Source of the DNA: Jiangella anatolica | GTDB taxonomy: Bacteria; Actinomycetota; Actinomycetes; Jiangellales; Jiangellaceae | DNA length: 64,000 nt | Assembly: GCF_003236295.1 (NCBI RefSeq) | Contig: NZ_POTW01000002.1 | Coordinates: 1-64,000, forward strand | Direction of reading: 5' to 3' | Shown: piece by piece, positions 1,937-41,970 of the stretch | Numbering within the stretch: position 1 is the stretch's first letter | Layout: every line of letters starts with the position of its first letter | Position numbers and translations under genes: made by a program | The notes under the pieces: generated by a model | Told to the model about the DNA's origin: nothing | What the model saw: the letters and a program-made list of their open reading frames with translations, nothing else | Database searches by the model: none

Positions 1937-3052
1937 ATGGTCTACGAGAGCCCGCTGGCCTACGCGCTCGGAATCGAGGGCATCGCCTTGCTGCGCGCCC
2001 TGGCCGACGGTGGCGGCCGTGACGCGGTGGAATCGCGGGTGGCGGAGATCCGGCGGCTGCTCGACGACGACTCACTGACTCGGGTGGCCGCCGACGTGGG
2101 CCGGGTGGATACGGTCACGGGTTACCGCCAGTGGTCCCGGGATTATGACGAGCCGGGCAATCCCGCCTTCGATGTGGACGAGCCCGTGATCGCCGACATC
2201 GTCGACGGGCTTCCGGCCGGTGATGCGTTGGACGCCGCCTGCGGGACCGGCCGGATCTCCCGGCTGCTGGCCGACCGCGGTCACCGGGTGCTCGGCGTGG
2301 ACAGCTCGGCGGAGATGCTTGTCCGAGCGCGCACCCGGGTGCCCGAGGCCACGTTCCAGCCCGGCGATCTGACCGCGCTCCCGGTGCCCGCCTCCACGAC
2401 CGATCTGGTCGTCTGCGCGCTGGCCCTGACCCACGTCCGTGACCTCGCGCCGGTGCTCGCCGAGTTCGCGCGAGTACTCCGCCCGGGAGGGCACGTGGTG
2501 CTGTCCGACATGCATCCCGAGACCGTGCTCCGTGGCTGGATCCCGTCCCTGGGCGGACCGGATGGCCGTCCCGTCCGGGTGACCAGCCATCGCCACTCGA
2601 TCGGGGACTACGTGCGGGCCGCCGTGAGCGCAGGACTGCGCCCGTTGCGTTGCGAAGAACCCGTCCTCGAACCGCTGGTCGCCTCCGCCGAGCCGCCACC
2701 GGACCCGGCAGTCGTCGAAGCGCTGCATGATCCGAGCGTCTGGCCGTGGTCTCCGAGCGTGCTGGTGCCCCAGGCAGCGCGGGCGGCCGACGCCGGCGTC
2801 CCGGCCGGGCTGATATGGCACTTCCAGCTGTCGACGCACGCTGCTGGCGAGGATGGTGGCGGGCGACCCTGGCCATCAATGGCATCAAATGACACTGAGA
2901 CCAGAACTGAGACCGGACGCACGTCGGGCCGGTCCTGGTCAGGACCGGCCCTCGGTATTCGTGCTGGTGGTGCGGAGGCGGCGGGATTTGAACCCGCGAG
3001 AGGGTTTGAGCCCTCAACCCGCTTAGCAGGCGGGCGCCATAAACCGGGCTAG
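1937..3052 (+). CDS. class I SAM-dependent methyltransferase with an over-extended C-terminus
   Basis: Starting at ATG 1937 (MVYESPLAYALGIEG), the product has an N-terminal helical segment and a Rossmann methyltransferase core. Motif I reads ALDAACGTGRISRLLADRGH, followed by GVDSSAEML (motif II), VPASTTDLVVCALALTHV and VLRPGGHVVLSD. These are the marks of the Methyltransf_11/25 group acting on small molecules. The recognisable domain ends near WHFQLS at about base 2835. After that the frame stays open for 70 more codons of low-complexity sequence and runs antisense through the tRNA-Ser gene before its stop at 3050-3052. Either the original stop was lost by a small deletion or frameshift, or the tail is truly translated; I favour the former. 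Confidence 0.75.
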   Translation: MVYESPLAYALGIEGIALLRALADGGGRDAVESRVAEIRRLLDDDSLTRVAADVGRVDTVTGYRQWSRDYDEPGNPAFDVDEPVIADIVDGLPAGDALDAACGTGRISRLLADRGHRVLGVDSSAEMLVRARTRVPEATFQPGDLTALPVPASTTDLVVCALALTHVRDLAPVLAEFARVLRPGGHVVLSDMHPETVLRGWIPSLGGPDGRPVRVTSHRHSIGDYVRAAVSAGLRPLRCEEPVLEPLVASAEPPPDPAVVEALHDPSVWPWSPSVLVPQAARAADAGVPAGLIWHFQLSTHAAGEDGGGRPWPSMASNDTETRTETGRTSGRSWSGPALGIRAGGAEAAGFEPARGFEPSTRLAGGRHKPG

Positions 3053-3063
3053 GCGACGCCTCC
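2973..3063 (-). tRNA. tRNA-Ser(GCT)
   Basis: The minus strand folds into a class II tRNA. The acceptor GGAGGCG (3063-3057) pairs with CGCCTCC (2980-2974), with G as discriminator. The anticodon stem CCCGC/GCGGG encloses loop CTGCTAA, giving anticodon GCT (codons AGC/AGU). There is a long variable arm and the T arm GCGGG-TTCAAAT-CCCGC. CCA is not encoded. The methyltransferase frame on the opposite strand reads into it. Confidence 0.95.
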
Positions 3064-3797: not shown

Positions 3798-3919
3798 CCG
3801 TGGTCACGTTCGCAACTTATCCACCGGTTCGCGCGTCTTGTATCAGAGGCGGTCGCCCGGACGTCCGCCTGGACCGGGCTGCGGTGTGATTATCCTGGCT
3901 TCGGCGGATAGAGCGGATC

Positions 3920-5557
3920 ATGAGAGGTGACCGGCAGGTGCAGCGCGCACGACGAGCTCAGGGTGCTCGACGCGCTCGGCTGCAGAAGCGACGGCAGCAG
4001 CGGAACCAACGCTACGGCCGGTTCATCGGACTCACCGCGCTCGGCTCGCTGATCCCCGGCACCGGTCTGATCGCCGCGGGGAAGCGCCGCCTCGGCACCA
4101 CCGTGCTCGTCATCCTCGTCGCCCTGATGATCCTCGGGCTCGCCGTCGTCGTGCTGATCCCGCCGACGGAGCTGGCGTCCTACGGCGGCGACCGGCAGAT
4201 GATGCTGATCGTCGGGACGGCGCTCGCGGCCGGCGCCGTGGCGTGGCTGCTGATCGCCCTCGGCACGCATCGTTCGCTCGAACCGGACGGCCTGCCCACC
4301 GGGAAGCGGCTGGCCGGCGCGCTCGTCGTCATCGTCAGCGCGTCCGTCGTCGTGGCGCCGATGGCGGTCGGCTCGCGGTACGCGTTCACCCAGCGCGAGC
4401 TGGTCGGCAACATCTCCTCCAGCGGCGCCAGCAACACCACCCCCGAGGTCGACACGTCCGACCCGTGGGCGGACAAGCCGCGGCTCAACGTGCTGTTCCT
4501 CGGCGGTGACGCCGGCGAGGGCCGGTCCGGGCTGCGTCCGGACACCCAGATCCTCGCCAGCATCGACACCCACACCGGCGCGACGACGATGATCTCGCTG
4601 CCACGCAACCTGCAGAACTTCCCGTTCCCCGAGGGCACGCCACTGGCAGCGGCCTACCCGAACGGCTTCAGCGGCGGCGGCGACGCCGGCGAGTGGATGC
4701 TCAACGCCGTCTACGCGAACGTGCCGCGCGATCACCCCGAGGTGTTCGAGGGCGTCGGCGACCCGGGCGCGGACGCCACCAAGTGGGCCGTCGAGGGCGC
4801 GCTCGGCATCGACGTCGACTACTTCATCATGGTCGACCTCGCCGGCTTCGAGGCCGTCGTCGACGCGCTCGGCGGCATCACCGTCAACGTTCCGCGCGAC
4901 ATCCCATGGGGTAACAAGAGCCTGCCCGATGGCACCTGCACCGAGGCCAACGGCTACATCCAGCAGGGCGACAACCAGCACCTCGACGGGTTCCAGGCGC
5001 TCTGGTTCGCCCGCTCCCGCTGCGGCAGCGACGACTACGAGCGCATGGAGCGCCAGCGCTGCGTCATGAACGCGATCGTCGCCAAGGTCGACCCGGCGAC
5101 GCTGCTCAGCCAGTACCAGAGCCTGGCCTCGGCGGCGGGCGACATCATCACGTCCGACGTGCCGGCCGACCTGTTCCCGGCGCTGATCGAGCTGATGGTG
5201 AAGGTCCGCACGCAGCCGCTGGAGAGCCTGACGCTGGACAACGAGTTCTTCGGCAGCATGGGCACCACGTCCGCCGACCCCGACTACGACGCGCTGCACG
5301 CCCGCGTCCAGGAGATCCTCACCGCACCGGACGACGCGGCCACGCCGGACCCGGGCGAGACGGGGACGCCCGGTGACACCACCGAGGCGACCGGGCAGAA
5401 CGCCGACGACGCGGCCAGTGACGGCTCCGGCGCCGCGATCGAGCACGCCTCCGACGACGCCGACGCCGAGGCGGAGCAGCCGGCCGAGGAACCCACCGAA
5501 GGTGCGACGGACGAGCCCGCGGCCGACGAGCCGGTCGACGCCGGCAGCGTCTGCTGA
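3920..5557 (+). CDS. LCP-family (LytR-CpsA-Psr) cell-wall glycopolymer ligase
   Basis: LCP proteins move lipid-linked glycopolymers onto peptidoglycan on the outer face of the membrane. This 545-residue protein begins with a very basic cytoplasmic stretch (residues 1-35) and has three membrane segments at about 58-80, 94-115 and 132-150. An extracytoplasmic LCP domain starts at LNVLFLGGDAGEG (about 189). Family marks are LRPDTQILASID with its Arg/Asp pair, ISLPRNL, LWFARSRCGSDDYERMERQR and the final helix bundle. The last 80 residues are an Asp/Glu/Ala/Thr-rich disordered tail, longer than usual. It ends two bases before a convergent lipoprotein gene. Confidence 0.92.
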   Translation: MRGDRQVQRARRAQGARRARLQKRRQQRNQRYGRFIGLTALGSLIPGTGLIAAGKRRLGTTVLVILVALMILGLAVVVLIPPTELASYGGDRQMMLIVGTALAAGAVAWLLIALGTHRSLEPDGLPTGKRLAGALVVIVSASVVVAPMAVGSRYAFTQRELVGNISSSGASNTTPEVDTSDPWADKPRLNVLFLGGDAGEGRSGLRPDTQILASIDTHTGATTMISLPRNLQNFPFPEGTPLAAAYPNGFSGGGDAGEWMLNAVYANVPRDHPEVFEGVGDPGADATKWAVEGALGIDVDYFIMVDLAGFEAVVDALGGITVNVPRDIPWGNKSLPDGTCTEANGYIQQGDNQHLDGFQALWFARSRCGSDDYERMERQRCVMNAIVAKVDPATLLSQYQSLASAAGDIITSDVPADLFPALIELMVKVRTQPLESLTLDNEFFGSMGTTSADPDYDALHARVQEILTAPDDAATPDPGETGTPGDTTEATGQNADDAASDGSGAAIEHASDDADAEAEQPAEEPTEGATDEPAADEPVDAGSVC

Positions 5558-9122: not shown

Positions 9123-9123
9123 G

Positions 9124-9216
9124 CGGAGGGCATGGGATTCGAACCCATGAGGACGGAGAGGGCCCCGCCCTAGAACTTTTCAAGAGTTCCCCGTTCGGCC
9201 ACTCCGGCAGCCCTCC
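9124..9216 (-). tRNA. tRNA-Ser(TGA)
   Basis: The minus strand gives acceptor GGAGGGC paired with GCCCTCC, discriminator G, D stem CCG/CGG, and anticodon stem GAACT/AGTTC around loop CTTGAAA, so the anticodon is TGA (codons UCN). A long GC-rich variable arm and the T arm ATGGG-TTCGAAT-CCCAT complete a normal class II tRNA. CCA is not encoded. It sits directly upstream of the BpsA-like gene on the same strand. Confidence 0.95.
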
Positions 9217-33425: not shown

Positions 33426-33977
33426 GTGGTCATGTCGCTGGAGTCCGAGCTCGACCGCCCGGTCACGCACCGCCGGACCGCCCGCGCGCTCCTCGTCGAG
33501 CCCGGCGGACGCGTGCTGCTTTTCGAGGACAGCGACCCGTCCGCGCCCGGCGCGCCCACGTTCTGGATCACCCCGGGCGGCGGCGTCGACTCCGGCGAGA
33601 CCCTGCTCGACGCGGTGGTCCGTGAGGTCGAGGAGGAGACCGGCCTGCGGCTGGCGCCGTCGGCGTTCCGTGGTCCGATCGCCGAGCGGACCGTCGTGCA
33701 CGCCTACTCCGACAAGATCGTCGTCCAGTCCGAGACGTTCTTCGTCGCCGACGCGCCGACCCAGGAGATCGTGCCGGCCGGGCTCACCGAGGACGAGCAG
33801 CTCACCGTCATCGGGCACCGCTGGTGGAGCCTGGACGAGCTGAGCAGCACCGAGCGGCCCGTGTGGCCGGTGGGGCTGCCCGGCCTGGTCGCGGCCGCGC
33901 ACACGCCGGCGGATTGGCCGGTCGCGCTCAGCGCCGCCGAGGAGTCGACGATCCCGACCAACCATTTCGCCCGCTGA
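33426..33977 (+). CDS. NUDIX hydrolase
   Basis: The 183-residue protein carries a complete Nudix box, GGVDSGETLLDAVVREVEEETGL at about residues 52-74, with all key Gly/Glu/Arg positions. An N-terminal segment THRRTARALLVEPGGRVLLF precedes it. The substrate is a nucleoside diphosphate derivative that cannot be named from sequence. GTG 33426 (alternative ATG 33432) fits the fold. Confidence 0.9.
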   Translation: MVMSLESELDRPVTHRRTARALLVEPGGRVLLFEDSDPSAPGAPTFWITPGGGVDSGETLLDAVVREVEEETGLRLAPSAFRGPIAERTVVHAYSDKIVVQSETFFVADAPTQEIVPAGLTEDEQLTVIGHRWWSLDELSSTERPVWPVGLPGLVAAAHTPADWPVALSAAEESTIPTNHFAR

Positions 33978-34119
33978 CGCCGACCTGCGCCGGGGGTCGC
34001 CTTCTCTCTGGTTGACTCGCCACGGAGGCCGTGAGACAGTGCCGGTCCGTCCACCTTCGGGTTGGATTGATGGCGCGTCCCGTCGATCACAGATTCCACC
34101 TGCGGCGGGACAGCCAAGT

Positions 34120-34206
34120 GGAGGCGTCGCGTAGTGGCCGAGCGCGCCGGCTTGAAAAGCCGGTGAGGGTGGAAATCCTCCGTGGGTTCGAATCCCACCG
34201 CCTGGC
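34120..34206 (+). tRNA. class II (serine-type) tRNA-like gene with apparent GAA anticodon and frayed acceptor
   Basis: The D stem GCG/CGC (34129-34131, 34143-34145), the anticodon stem CCGGC/GCCGG with seven-base loop TTGAAAA (34152-34158), a variable stem GAGG/CCTC and the T arm GTGGG-TTCGAAT-CCCAC all pair well. The long variable arm and GG-rich 5' end are serine-like, yet the loop places GAA at positions 34-36. The acceptor is GGAGGCG against CGCCTGG, so the outer two pairs are G-G mismatches. A degenerate tRNA-Ser or an unusual recoding tRNA are both possible; a scanner may report Ser(TGA) if it shifts the loop by one. Confidence 0.6.
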
Positions 34207-34265
34207 CAGACCTGTCCGGTTTGCCCCGTTTCATGCGGAGGCTGCTGCTTGATAGCCGGGGGTTC

Positions 34266-34432: not shown

Positions 34433-35035
34433 ATGTCGATTCGTCACGGTCTGCTGGCTCTGCTGGAGCGTTCGCCGATGTACGGCTATCAGTTGCGGCA
34501 CGAGTTCGAGCGGTCCACCGGCGCGACCTGGCCGCTCAACGTCGGCCAGGTCTACACGACGCTGGCTCGGCTGGAGCGCGACGGGCTGGTGGCGCAGACC
34601 GGCGAGTCCGACGAGGACGGCAAGGTCGTCTACCGGCTCACCGACGCCGGCCACGCGGAGCTGACCGGCTGGTTCGCCACCCCGATCGGCGGCGCCGACC
34701 GGCCGCGCGACGAGCTGGCGATCAAGGTGGCGTTGGCGCTGACGACCCCCGGCGTCGACGTGCGGGCGGTGCTGCAGACGCAACGCACGGCGACGTTGCG
34801 GCACCTGCAGGAGCTGACCCGGCTGAAGGCGGTCGCCGACGGGTCCGAGGACACCGCCTGGCTGCTGGTGCTGGACTCGATGATCTTCCGGGCCGAGGCC
34901 GAGGTCCGCTGGCTGGACCACTCCGAGACCCGGCTGGCGCGGCGCGGCACGACCTCCCCGCCGGCGAACCGGCCCGGCGCCGCCGCGCCGGACCCGGCCG
35001 ACGCCGGCGCCGGCGATCGCGCGGTGCCGCGATGA
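34433..35035 (+). CDS. PadR-family transcription repressor
   Basis: The 200-residue protein begins MSIRHGLLALLERSPMYGYQLRHEFERSTGATWPLNVGQVYTTLARLERDGLV, the classic PadR winged helix. A C-terminal helical dimer domain follows (residues 90-175), then a Pro/Ala-rich tail. It is the first gene of a coupled operon with an ABC ATPase and permease (ATGA overlap), a common layout where PadR senses the compound that the transporter removes. ATG 34433 sits right after the operator; the longer frame upstream is not real. Confidence 0.92.
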   Translation: MSIRHGLLALLERSPMYGYQLRHEFERSTGATWPLNVGQVYTTLARLERDGLVAQTGESDEDGKVVYRLTDAGHAELTGWFATPIGGADRPRDELAIKVALALTTPGVDVRAVLQTQRTATLRHLQELTRLKAVADGSEDTAWLLVLDSMIFRAEAEVRWLDHSETRLARRGTTSPPANRPGAAAPDPADAGAGDRAVPR

Positions 35036-39901: not shown

Positions 39902-40708
39902 TCAGGCGAAGTAGCCGTCGAGCACGGTGGCCAGGCCGTCGGACTCCACGTCGGCGCAGACGGCGTCGGCCACGGCCTTGACGTCGTCGGGGGCCTGGCC
40001 CATCGCGACGCCGACGCCGGCCCAGCGCAGCATCTCCACGTCGTTGTGGCCGTCGCCGACGGCGAGCGCGTCGGCCCCCTGCAACCCGAGCTTGCCGGCG
40101 ACCTTGCTCAGCCCGGACGCCTTCGAGACGCCGACCGGCATGATGTCCAGCCACGCGGTGTAGCCGATCGCGTAGTCGACGCTGGGCAGGCCGGAGGCGT
40201 GGGCGATCTCGCGCAGCCGGTCGCGGTCGCCGTCGGGCCAGCGCACGACCAGCCGGGTCACCGGCTGAGCGACCAGCGCCTCGTGCGGGACGACGGTGAC
40301 CGTGCCGTCGAGGTCGCCGGCCGGGAACTCGCCGGTGACGCGGTAGCCGCGGCCCAGCTCCTCGACCGCCAGCACGGCGTCGGGGATCCGGGTGGTGAAG
40401 TACCGCACGGTGTCGGTGATGTCGAACGTCTCGATGTCCACCGGCGCCCGGCTCTCGACGTCGACGACGACGGCGCCGTTCGAGCAGACCGCGTAGCCGT
40501 CCTTGAGCCCCAGCTGGTCCAGCAGCGGCAGCGTCGAGTGCATCGACCGCCCGGTGGCGACGACGATGTGCGCACCGGCGTCGTGCGCTCGCCGCACCGC
40601 GTCGACGACGACGGCTCGCGGCGGCCGGTGGAACTCGGCGTAGGTGACGATCGTGCCGTCGACGTCGAGTGCGACCAGCGCCGGGCGCCACTCGCCGGCC
40701 GGCGTCAC
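39902..40708 (-). CDS. HAD-superfamily (Cof-type) hydrolase
   Basis: The 268-residue phosphatase has HAD motif [13 protein letters not shown] (Asp at about 15), motif [11 protein letters not shown], a type C2 cap with substrate-facing strands and motif [35 protein letters not shown]. This is the Cof family acting on sugar phosphates or cofactors in the cytoplasm. GTG 40708 overlaps the serS stop by four bases, so it is translated with serS, a conserved order in actinobacteria. Confidence 0.92.
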
Positions 40709-41970
40709 GCCGCGACCGGTTCCAGCAGCTCGCGTCCGCCGAGGAACGGGCGCAGCGCCTTCGGCACGTGCACCGAGCCGTCGGGCTGCTGGTGGTTCTC
40801 CAGCAGCGCCACGATCCATCGCGTCGTCGCCAGCGTGCCGTTCAGCGTCGCGACCGGGCGGGTGCCGCCGTCGGTGCGCTCGCGGATCCCCAGCCGGCGG
40901 GCCTGGAACGTCGTGCAGTTCGACGTCGAGGTCAGCTCCAGCCAGCGCTCCTGCGACGGCAGCCACGCCTCGCAGTCGAACTTGCGCGCCGCGCTGGACC
41001 CGAGGTCGCCGGCCGCGACGTCGATGACGCGGTACGGCAGCTCCATGTCGGCCAACATCTGCTCCTCCCAGCCGAGCAGGCGCGCGTGCTCGTCCGCGGC
41101 GTCCTCCTCGCGGCAGTAGCAGAACATCTCGACCTTGTGGAACTGGTGAACGCGGATGATCCCGCGGGTGTCCTTTCCGTAAGAACCCGCCTCGCGCCGG
41201 TAGCAGGCCGACCAGCCGGCGTAGCGCAGCGGCCCGTCGGAGAGGTCGACGATCTCGTCGGCGTGGTAGCCGGCCAGCGCGACCTCGCTGGTGCCGACCA
41301 GGTAGAGGTCGTCGGCCTCGACGCGGTAGATCTCGTCGGCGTGCGCGCCGAGGAAGCCGGTGCCGCCCATGATCTCCGGGCGCACCAGCGTCGGCGTGAT
41401 GACCGGCGTGAACCCGGCGGCGACGGCGGTGGCCATGCCGTGGTTGAGGATGGCCAGCTCCAGCTGGGCGCCGACGCCGGTGAGGAAGTAGAACCGTGAG
41501 CCCGACACCTTGGCGCCGCGCTCGGTGTCGATGGCGCGCAGCCCCTCACCCAGCTCCAGGTGGTCGCGGACCCGCTCCAGCGCCGGCTTGTCGCCGACCT
41601 CCCTGAGCACGACGTAGTCGTCCTCGCCGCCGGCGGGCACGCCGTCGAGGACGAGGTTCGACGGCACCCGGGCCAGCTCGTCGAGGGTCGCCTGTGCTGC
41701 CGCGGCGGCGGCCTCGGCGGCCTTCACCTCGGCGGCCAGCTCCTGGACCGCGGCCAGCAGCTGTTGCTTCTCCTCCGGCGCGGCCTTCGAGATCAGCTTG
41801 CCCCGGCTCTTCTGCTCCGCGCGCAGCCGCTCGAACTCGGCGAGGGAGGACCGGCGCGACTCGTCGGCGGCGAGCAGCTCGTCGACGACGGCCTCGCTCT
41901 CGCCGCGCGCTCGCTGCGAGGCGCGGACACGGTCGGGGTCTTCCCGGATCAGGCGCAGATCTAGCACCAC
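40705..41970 (-). CDS. serS: seryl-tRNA synthetase
   Basis: The 421-residue class II synthetase charges tRNA-Ser. It has the N-terminal coiled-coil arm (about residues 30-105), motif 1 around [13 protein letters not shown], motif 2 [27 protein letters not shown] and motif 3 [18 protein letters not shown]. The arm is the part that recognises the long variable arm of tRNA-Ser, relevant to the three class II tRNAs in this window. Start is GTG 41970 or the next codon GTG 41967. Confidence 0.97.

Follow-up and report, generated by a model that had tools for sequence, protein, structure and literature searches.

A gene at positions 34120–34205(+) of the window, the 64-kb stretch of Jiangella anatolica DNA analysed here, combines a class II (serine-type) tRNA body with the anticodon GAA. 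It is probably an acquired gene of the tRNA-Ser(TGA) type whose anticodon arm slipped to GAA and whose end for serine charging was lost, and which persists as a silenced relic and not as a working adaptor. We establish its anatomy, its rarity, its absence from congeners and the position of its lesion. ARAGORN calls the gene as tRNA-Phe(gaa) at 34120–34207(+). The Rfam model RF00005, scanned against the 64-kb window, matches 34122–34203 with 44.5 bits and an E-value of 3.3e-6, so the tRNA match is not due to chance; in the same scan the host Ser(TGA) gene falls below the gathering score. A pattern for class II GAA tRNAs matches the window exactly once, and 0/100 shuffles contain any match. The parts of the gene and its surroundings are listed in Table 1.

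Table 1. Positions in the window of the GAA gene and its parts, its two neighbours and two serine tRNA genes of the host
Feature	Positions	Strand	Remarks
Canonical host tRNA-Ser(GCT)	2972–3063	-	
Canonical host tRNA-Ser(TGA)	9123–9216	-	97–103 nt matched in 11/11 congeners at 99–100% identity
NUDIX hydrolase, left neighbour	33426–33977	+	Orthologues in 11/11 congeners
Acceptor 5′ strand, GGAGGCG	34120–34126	+	Pairs 3-7 formed; G1 and G2 opposite G
D stem 5′ strand, GCG	34129–34131	+	
D stem 3′ strand, CGC	34143–34145	+	
Anticodon stem 5′ strand, CCGGC	34147–34151	+	
Anticodon loop, TTGAAAA	34152–34158	+	GAA at 34154–34156
Anticodon stem 3′ strand, GCCGG	34159–34163	+	
Variable arm	34164–34181	+	18 nt; stem GAGG/CCTC, extendable to GAGGGT/ATCCTC
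T arm, GTGGG-TTCGAAT-CCCAC	34182–34198	+	
Acceptor 3′ strand, CGCCTGG	34199–34205	+	G71 and G72 cannot pair with G2 and G1
CCA	34206–34208	+	Immediately 3′ of position 72, without G73
PadR-family regulator, right neighbour	34433–35035	+	

The D, anticodon, variable and T helices that had been proposed in the sequence-only reading are all present as described, and the serine-type body with GAA and G.G mismatches at 1-72 and 2-71 is confirmed, with G73 absent as well. The acceptor is paired from 3-70 to 7-66, with G.G at 1-72 and 2-71 and C at position 73. Judged as a tRNA-Ser, the gene has the long variable arm with a stem (18 nt), but G.G and G.G stand where G1-C72 and G2-C71 are expected, C stands in place of the G73 discriminator, and the anticodon is GAA instead of a serine anticodon (NGA or GCT). 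Judged as a tRNA-Phe, it has the GAA anticodon, but its 18-nt variable arm is not the short variable loop of a class I body. Reading the loop in the Ser TGA register (CTTGAAA at 32-38) leaves 0/5 anticodon-stem pairs when counted directly from the sequence; thus GAA is the only paired register, and shifting the stem does not restore the canonical Ser(TGA) fold.

In bacterial tRNA-Ser, G1-C72, G2-C71 and G73 are reported to be conserved or determinant positions, and SerRS is independent of the anticodon (PMC9976931). The lesion of the window gene coincides with these reported serine identity positions, which derive from E. coli and other models and may differ for the host SerRS (encoded at 40705–41970 of the window). 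Furthermore, GGCCA at 34204–34208 is complementary to TGGCC in the D loop (34135–34139), and predicted folds that include 34206–34208 give this pairing a probability of up to 0.99. In these predictions the acceptor pairs 3-7 have a probability of 0.22–0.25 for 34120–34208, 0.01 for 34105–34222 and 0 for 34060–34260, whereas the RNA trimmed at 34205 is predicted to keep its cloverleaf, with pairs 3-7 at 0.92–0.99. A consensus scan, which is weak evidence in GC-rich genomes, found neither a promoter for the gene nor a terminator after it, and its sole promoter match precedes the PadR gene; a weak promoter candidate was seen by eye directly in the sequence (TTGACT at 34012–34017, a 17-nt spacer and GACAGT at 34035–34040). 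In its present form, the RNA is expected to be a poor substrate for charging by SerRS. The loss of G1-C72, G2-C71 and G73, together with the predicted misfold and the lack of a promoter or terminator in the scan, makes serine charging, and hence recoding, unlikely.

The host already has a complete set of serine tRNAs: GCT and TGA lie in the window, and a separate contig carries GGA and CGA. The GAA gene comes on top of this set. Its best match found is a Ser(TGA) gene from another family of the same class (L065), with 83% global identity, compared with 65% to the host's own Ser TGA gene and 68–72% to its own CGA, GGA and GCT genes, which rules out a recent copy of a resident serine tRNA. Alignment of the anticodon region with L065 requires a single deletion ahead of CTTGAAAA and an inserted G behind it. 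The earlier suggestion of a degenerate tRNA-Ser(TGA) whose anticodon stem slid by one pair fits this comparison. The gene is like a bacterial tRNA-Ser(UGA) in its class II body, long variable arm, and T and D arms, and unlike it in the GAA anticodon, the slid anticodon stem, G1.G72, G2.G71 and the missing G73. The nearest BLAST sequences among those inspected are ordinary serine tRNAs. Database searches matched the gene to 18 phage and 11 plasmid records; 15/18 phage matches are annotated as tRNA-Ser, and of the two genes whose anticodon was determined, that of the Acidovorax phage is Ser(tga) and the Nonomuraea one is Ser(cga). Across 393 genomes of the class, the class II GAA pattern matches in the host genome only. 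A canonical TGA pattern matched 3/9 genomes and also missed the host's own TGA gene, so that its negatives do not demonstrate absence; a tRNA-Phe pattern, judged too strict, gave 0 matches in the host's own genome. We infer a foreign origin; a donor was not found in the searches made.

The gene is private to this genome when compared with 11 congeners. No tRNA was found within 1.5 kb on either side of the orthologous NUDIX gene in 11/11 congeners, either by ARAGORN on the 3.5-kb loci or by Rfam at E ≤ 5. No orthologue of the gene was found. Used as a query against the congeners, the gene retrieves only matches of 73–83% identity, comparable to those of the host's canonical serine tRNAs, and the only such match whose anticodon was determined, in G005, is a Ser GCT tRNA. 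PadR starts 78–1082 nt past the NUDIX gene in 9/11 congeners; in L045 and L046 no PadR start was found within 1.5 kb of NUDIX. Just after the gene lies a 15-nt inverted repeat (93%; 34216–34230/34351–34365, 120 nt apart), in a stretch without a further genomic copy below E 0.05. We rejected an insertion by a repeated element: downstream, the adjoining 196 bp match no other place in the genome below E 0.05, and the upstream flank of the window gene was matched in 0/24 relatives.

In the scheme we favour, a tRNA-Ser gene of the TGA type would have been acquired horizontally and its anticodon arm would have slipped to a GAA (Phe) reading; the loss of G1-C72, G2-C71 and G73 would have disabled serine charging, and the 3′ end of the RNA would pair with its own D loop. 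Silencing may have been favoured because a charged copy would place serine at Phe codons. The expected poor charging by SerRS together with the predicted pairing between 3′ end and D loop makes a silenced relic the most likely outcome. The absence of a tRNA at NUDIX in congeners, the complete serine set of the host and the occurrence of the GAA pattern in 1/393 genomes speak for a relic. Against it, none of the internal helices has a defect, an unusual state for a gene in free decay; the predicted cloverleaf holds when the RNA is trimmed at 34205, and there may be a weak promoter, the candidate seen by eye; and the same tip lesion is found in unrelated GAA tRNAs and looks kept in a phage pair. 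Random decay, towards which the sequence-only reading had leaned, is thus an incomplete account of the gene, its internal helices being perfect and its tip lesion recurring in unrelated class II GAA tRNAs.

The recurrence emerged from a survey with a pattern for a class II body with GAA in which the acceptor was left free. It returned 16 stretches from a genome set of 84,980 species, and five scans of viral contigs with differing D arms returned 0, 3, 5, 6 (three new) and 1. Each stretch had to form at least 4/5 pairs in both the anticodon and the T stem, a filter failed by the genome stretches L048, L053, L058, L059, L060 and L063 and by the viral stretches L207 and L210. L124 was dropped as equal to L121, and L052 and L061 passed the filter but were set aside as permuted tRNA halves. 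There remained 18 distinct class II GAA tRNA-like genes, i.e. the window gene and 17 others. Breaks at 1-72 and/or 2-71 occur in 11 of the 18; the acceptor is intact in six, and in the remaining one, L118, only 3-70 is unpaired. From 1-72 to 7-66, the 18 genes have 9, 11, 3, 0, 0, 1 and 0 broken pairs, and 20/24 broken pairs lie at 1-72/2-71 (P = 6e-11 for random placement within each acceptor stem, which treats neighbouring pairs as independent; P about 9e-5 under a model of damage inward from the end). The acceptor register was set by the best fit of pairs 3-7 among three offsets, a choice that favours tip lesions; a fixed-offset analysis (L051 being the exception) gave the same outcome for nine genes.

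As a control, the viral scan for GCA with one of the same patterns matched 82 stretches. Among the 80 class II Cys tRNAs listed, 75 have an intact acceptor and five are broken at 1-72 and/or 2-71; this control used one fixed offset, and its five broken cases may include wrong registers. These 80 Cys tRNAs (GCA), from viral contigs L125–L204, have variable arms of at least 10 nt. Canonical serine tRNAs with TGA or CGA loops are intact in 21/21 cases with none broken, a soft control since similarity was the basis on which most had been retrieved. When GGT or GGC was put into the same class II pattern, 0 stretches matched, though these anticodons also alter A36, unlike GAA and GCA.

Several loci from the survey are of interest in themselves. 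The two sequences set aside, from Tenacibaculum (L052, about 3900–4210 of CANMIL010000002.1; L061, about 3900–4190 of JAHDDQ010000002.1), contain a row of tRNAs with an apparent circular permutation. Each of the three units has its T arm and 3′ acceptor strand upstream of the complementary 5′ acceptor strand and D arm; the acceptor strands are complementary over 6–7 nt across short linkers, with letters that differ between the species, and in both species ARAGORN recognises a complete tRNA-Met(cat) once the two halves of the third unit are joined. A 2014 review describes permuted tRNAs in algae and an archaeal lineage, and in bacteria for tmRNA only (PMC3978253, in the part consulted). The six GAA genes with an intact acceptor (L051, L056, L057, L123, L208 and L209) are of the serine type and could put serine at Phe codons; three of them are in viral contigs, and two of those three encode a GCCA end. 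In Bifidobacterium asteroides (L056, 6355/6571), a 26-nt stretch from the anticodon and variable-arm region of the GAA tRNA recurs 216 nt downstream with a single mismatch, an arrangement like that of an integration site. ATTC replaces the normal acceptor 3′ tip in a Sphingomonas gene (L055, 2386–2482) and a viral one (L118, 11813–11901), each followed by a GC-rich hairpin, and the two are perhaps related. An Aeromicrobium MAG (L050, 1272–1359) carries a serine-type body with the anticodon arm TCCGC-CTGAAAA-GTGGA and a 5′ tip broken at 1-72 and 2-71; we take its anticodon arm to resemble that of actinobacterial tRNA-Phe.

The GAA genes in viral contigs occupy various positions: between methyltransferase and replication genes in L119, near a DNA invertase in L122, between tape measure and distal tail genes in L123, and between the large terminase and portal genes, on the strand opposite to both, in L120 and L121. 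A blastn search of 50,697 phage records at E 1e-5 gave no match to L119- or L121-type elements, and the E. coli genomes yielded none to the L121 element; at E 1e-12, the L055 and L062 elements were not found in 60 and 40 relatives of their hosts, respectively. The genes of L120 and L121 (the latter also carried by L124) are accompanied by a promoter-like site and a terminator. Of the five differences between them up to position 72, one lies in the D loop; the others affect a base pair of the anticodon stem and a base pair of the variable stem, each changed on both sides, i.e. in a compensatory manner. Both retain G1.G72 and G2.G71, and their terminases share 47% identity. Among the matches listed from known phages, the L121 terminase is closest to that of a Lysinibacillus phage (67%), and one further record, counted beyond these, matches at 90–95%. 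ARAGORN found a GAA tRNA at the terminase–portal junction in 0/6 related phages, suggesting that the gene is an accessory insertion in L120 and L121. The junction is tight in L213, L215 and L216, holds other genes in L217 and L218, and in Streptococcus phage Javan64 (L214, MK449000.1) is a 540-nt spacer with a tRNA-Cys(gca) by ARAGORN; by eye, a second odd tRNA-like stretch precedes this tRNA-Cys(gca)-like gene (L214, 3750–4292). The GAA gene of the phage pair was retained, or else transferred, without pairing at its tip, and from the compared sequences the unpaired tip looks kept.

These genes raise the serious rival to a relic: the window gene may be a chromosomal member of a recurrent, phage-spread class of serine-shaped tRNA-like genes with a Phe anticodon, often carried as an extra phage gene and purposely uncharged through the loss of G1-C72 and G2-C71. 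Such RNAs could serve, for example, as decoys for a tRNA-targeting nuclease or toxin, or as uncharged tRNAs reading Phe codons. The tip is broken in 11/18 GAA genes against 5/80 viral class II Cys tRNAs and 0/21 canonical serine tRNAs, the damage is concentrated at 1-72/2-71 (20/24 broken pairs), and GGT and GGC give 0 matches in the same pattern. L120 and L121 add a promoter-like site and a terminator opposite to the terminase and portal genes, and keep G.G/G.G despite compensatory pair changes and terminases that are only 47% identical. The window gene has the features of the tip-broken genes (class II body, GAA, intact internal helices and breaks at 1-72/2-71), and it shares its G.G/G.G lesion and its anatomy with L120 and L121, at 62–63% sequence identity. 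However, it adjoins NUDIX and PadR and not phage genes, it has no promoter or terminator by the consensus scan (only the weak candidate seen by eye) and no orthologue, and it is predicted to misfold; 6/18 GAA acceptors are intact, the sole break in L118 is at 3-70, and the members could have arisen separately. If would-be mistranslators were detoxified again and again, this pattern of lesions would be expected without any function, although the phage pair, which looks maintained, counters this. As the window gene lacks the clear signs of a kept transcription unit seen in L120 and L121 and shares 62–63% identity with them, we prefer a relic and rank it above an uncharged functional class, which we consider a possible but rather unlikely account.

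It is less probable still that the gene is the remnant of an attachment site, i.e. a fragment left when a mobile element integrated into a tRNA gene. Such fragments are common and are often listed as tRNA genes (PMC9897764), the gene looks foreign, and the NUDIX–PadR spacer varies from 78 to 1082 nt among congeners. However, attachment-site fragments are partial copies beside elements (PMC9897764), with a complete copy at the other end, whereas the window gene is near full length and not a 3′ part, its two flanking genes are NUDIX and PadR, and the similar places in the genome are canonical serine tRNAs only. Finally, the recoding tRNA proposed in the sequence-only reading, which would actively place serine at Phe codons as deliberate mistranslation, is very improbable: SerRS is independent of the anticodon (PMC9976931), the GAA loop is well formed and in humans a naturally occurring tRNA-Ser variant inserts serine at Phe codons (PMC9956149), but G1-C72 and G2-C71 are broken, G73 is missing, the RNA with 34206–34208 is predicted to misfold, the scan gave no promoter or terminator, and neither an orthologue nor conservation was found.

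The relic that we favour can also be set beside known tRNAs with serine bodies and foreign anticodons. Allo-tRNAs have a 12-bp acceptor domain in an 8/4 or 9/3 layout (Mukai et al. 2017, as reviewed in PMC7609411); Phe is among the decodings listed for the 9/3 type, and a damaged allo-tRNA pseudogene overlaps a transposon-related gene (PMC7609411). The window gene shares their serine-type body with a non-serine anticodon, but it has the ordinary 7/5 layout and not a 12-bp domain. Human tRNA-Ser(AGA) G35A likewise joins a serine body to a Phe-codon anticodon, but it is a human polymorphism and is active in decoding Phe codons with serine (PMC9956149). In yeast, serine tRNAs with foreign anticodons can be toxic, and second changes tame this toxicity (PMC6827378). 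There, too, changes outside the anticodon lower toxicity and a Phe GAA version was built, although these are laboratory constructs changed at other positions (PMC6827378). In the literature covered, which included PMC13191261 and few subscription papers, we found no earlier report of broken-tip GAA genes among the serine tRNAs of bacteria or phages.

Since SerRS ignores the anticodon, any serine tRNA that reads Phe codons is poised to mistranslate them. The rarity and patchiness of these genes, and their repeated breakage at the serine identity pairs, are a natural record of how they are tolerated in cells and phages. Should the phage copies prove functional, they would represent a new type of phage accessory RNA, shaped like a tRNA but not charged like one; an uncharged class of this kind, if true, might provide decoys for defences or toxins that cut tRNAs, or tRNAs that occupy Phe codons without an amino acid.
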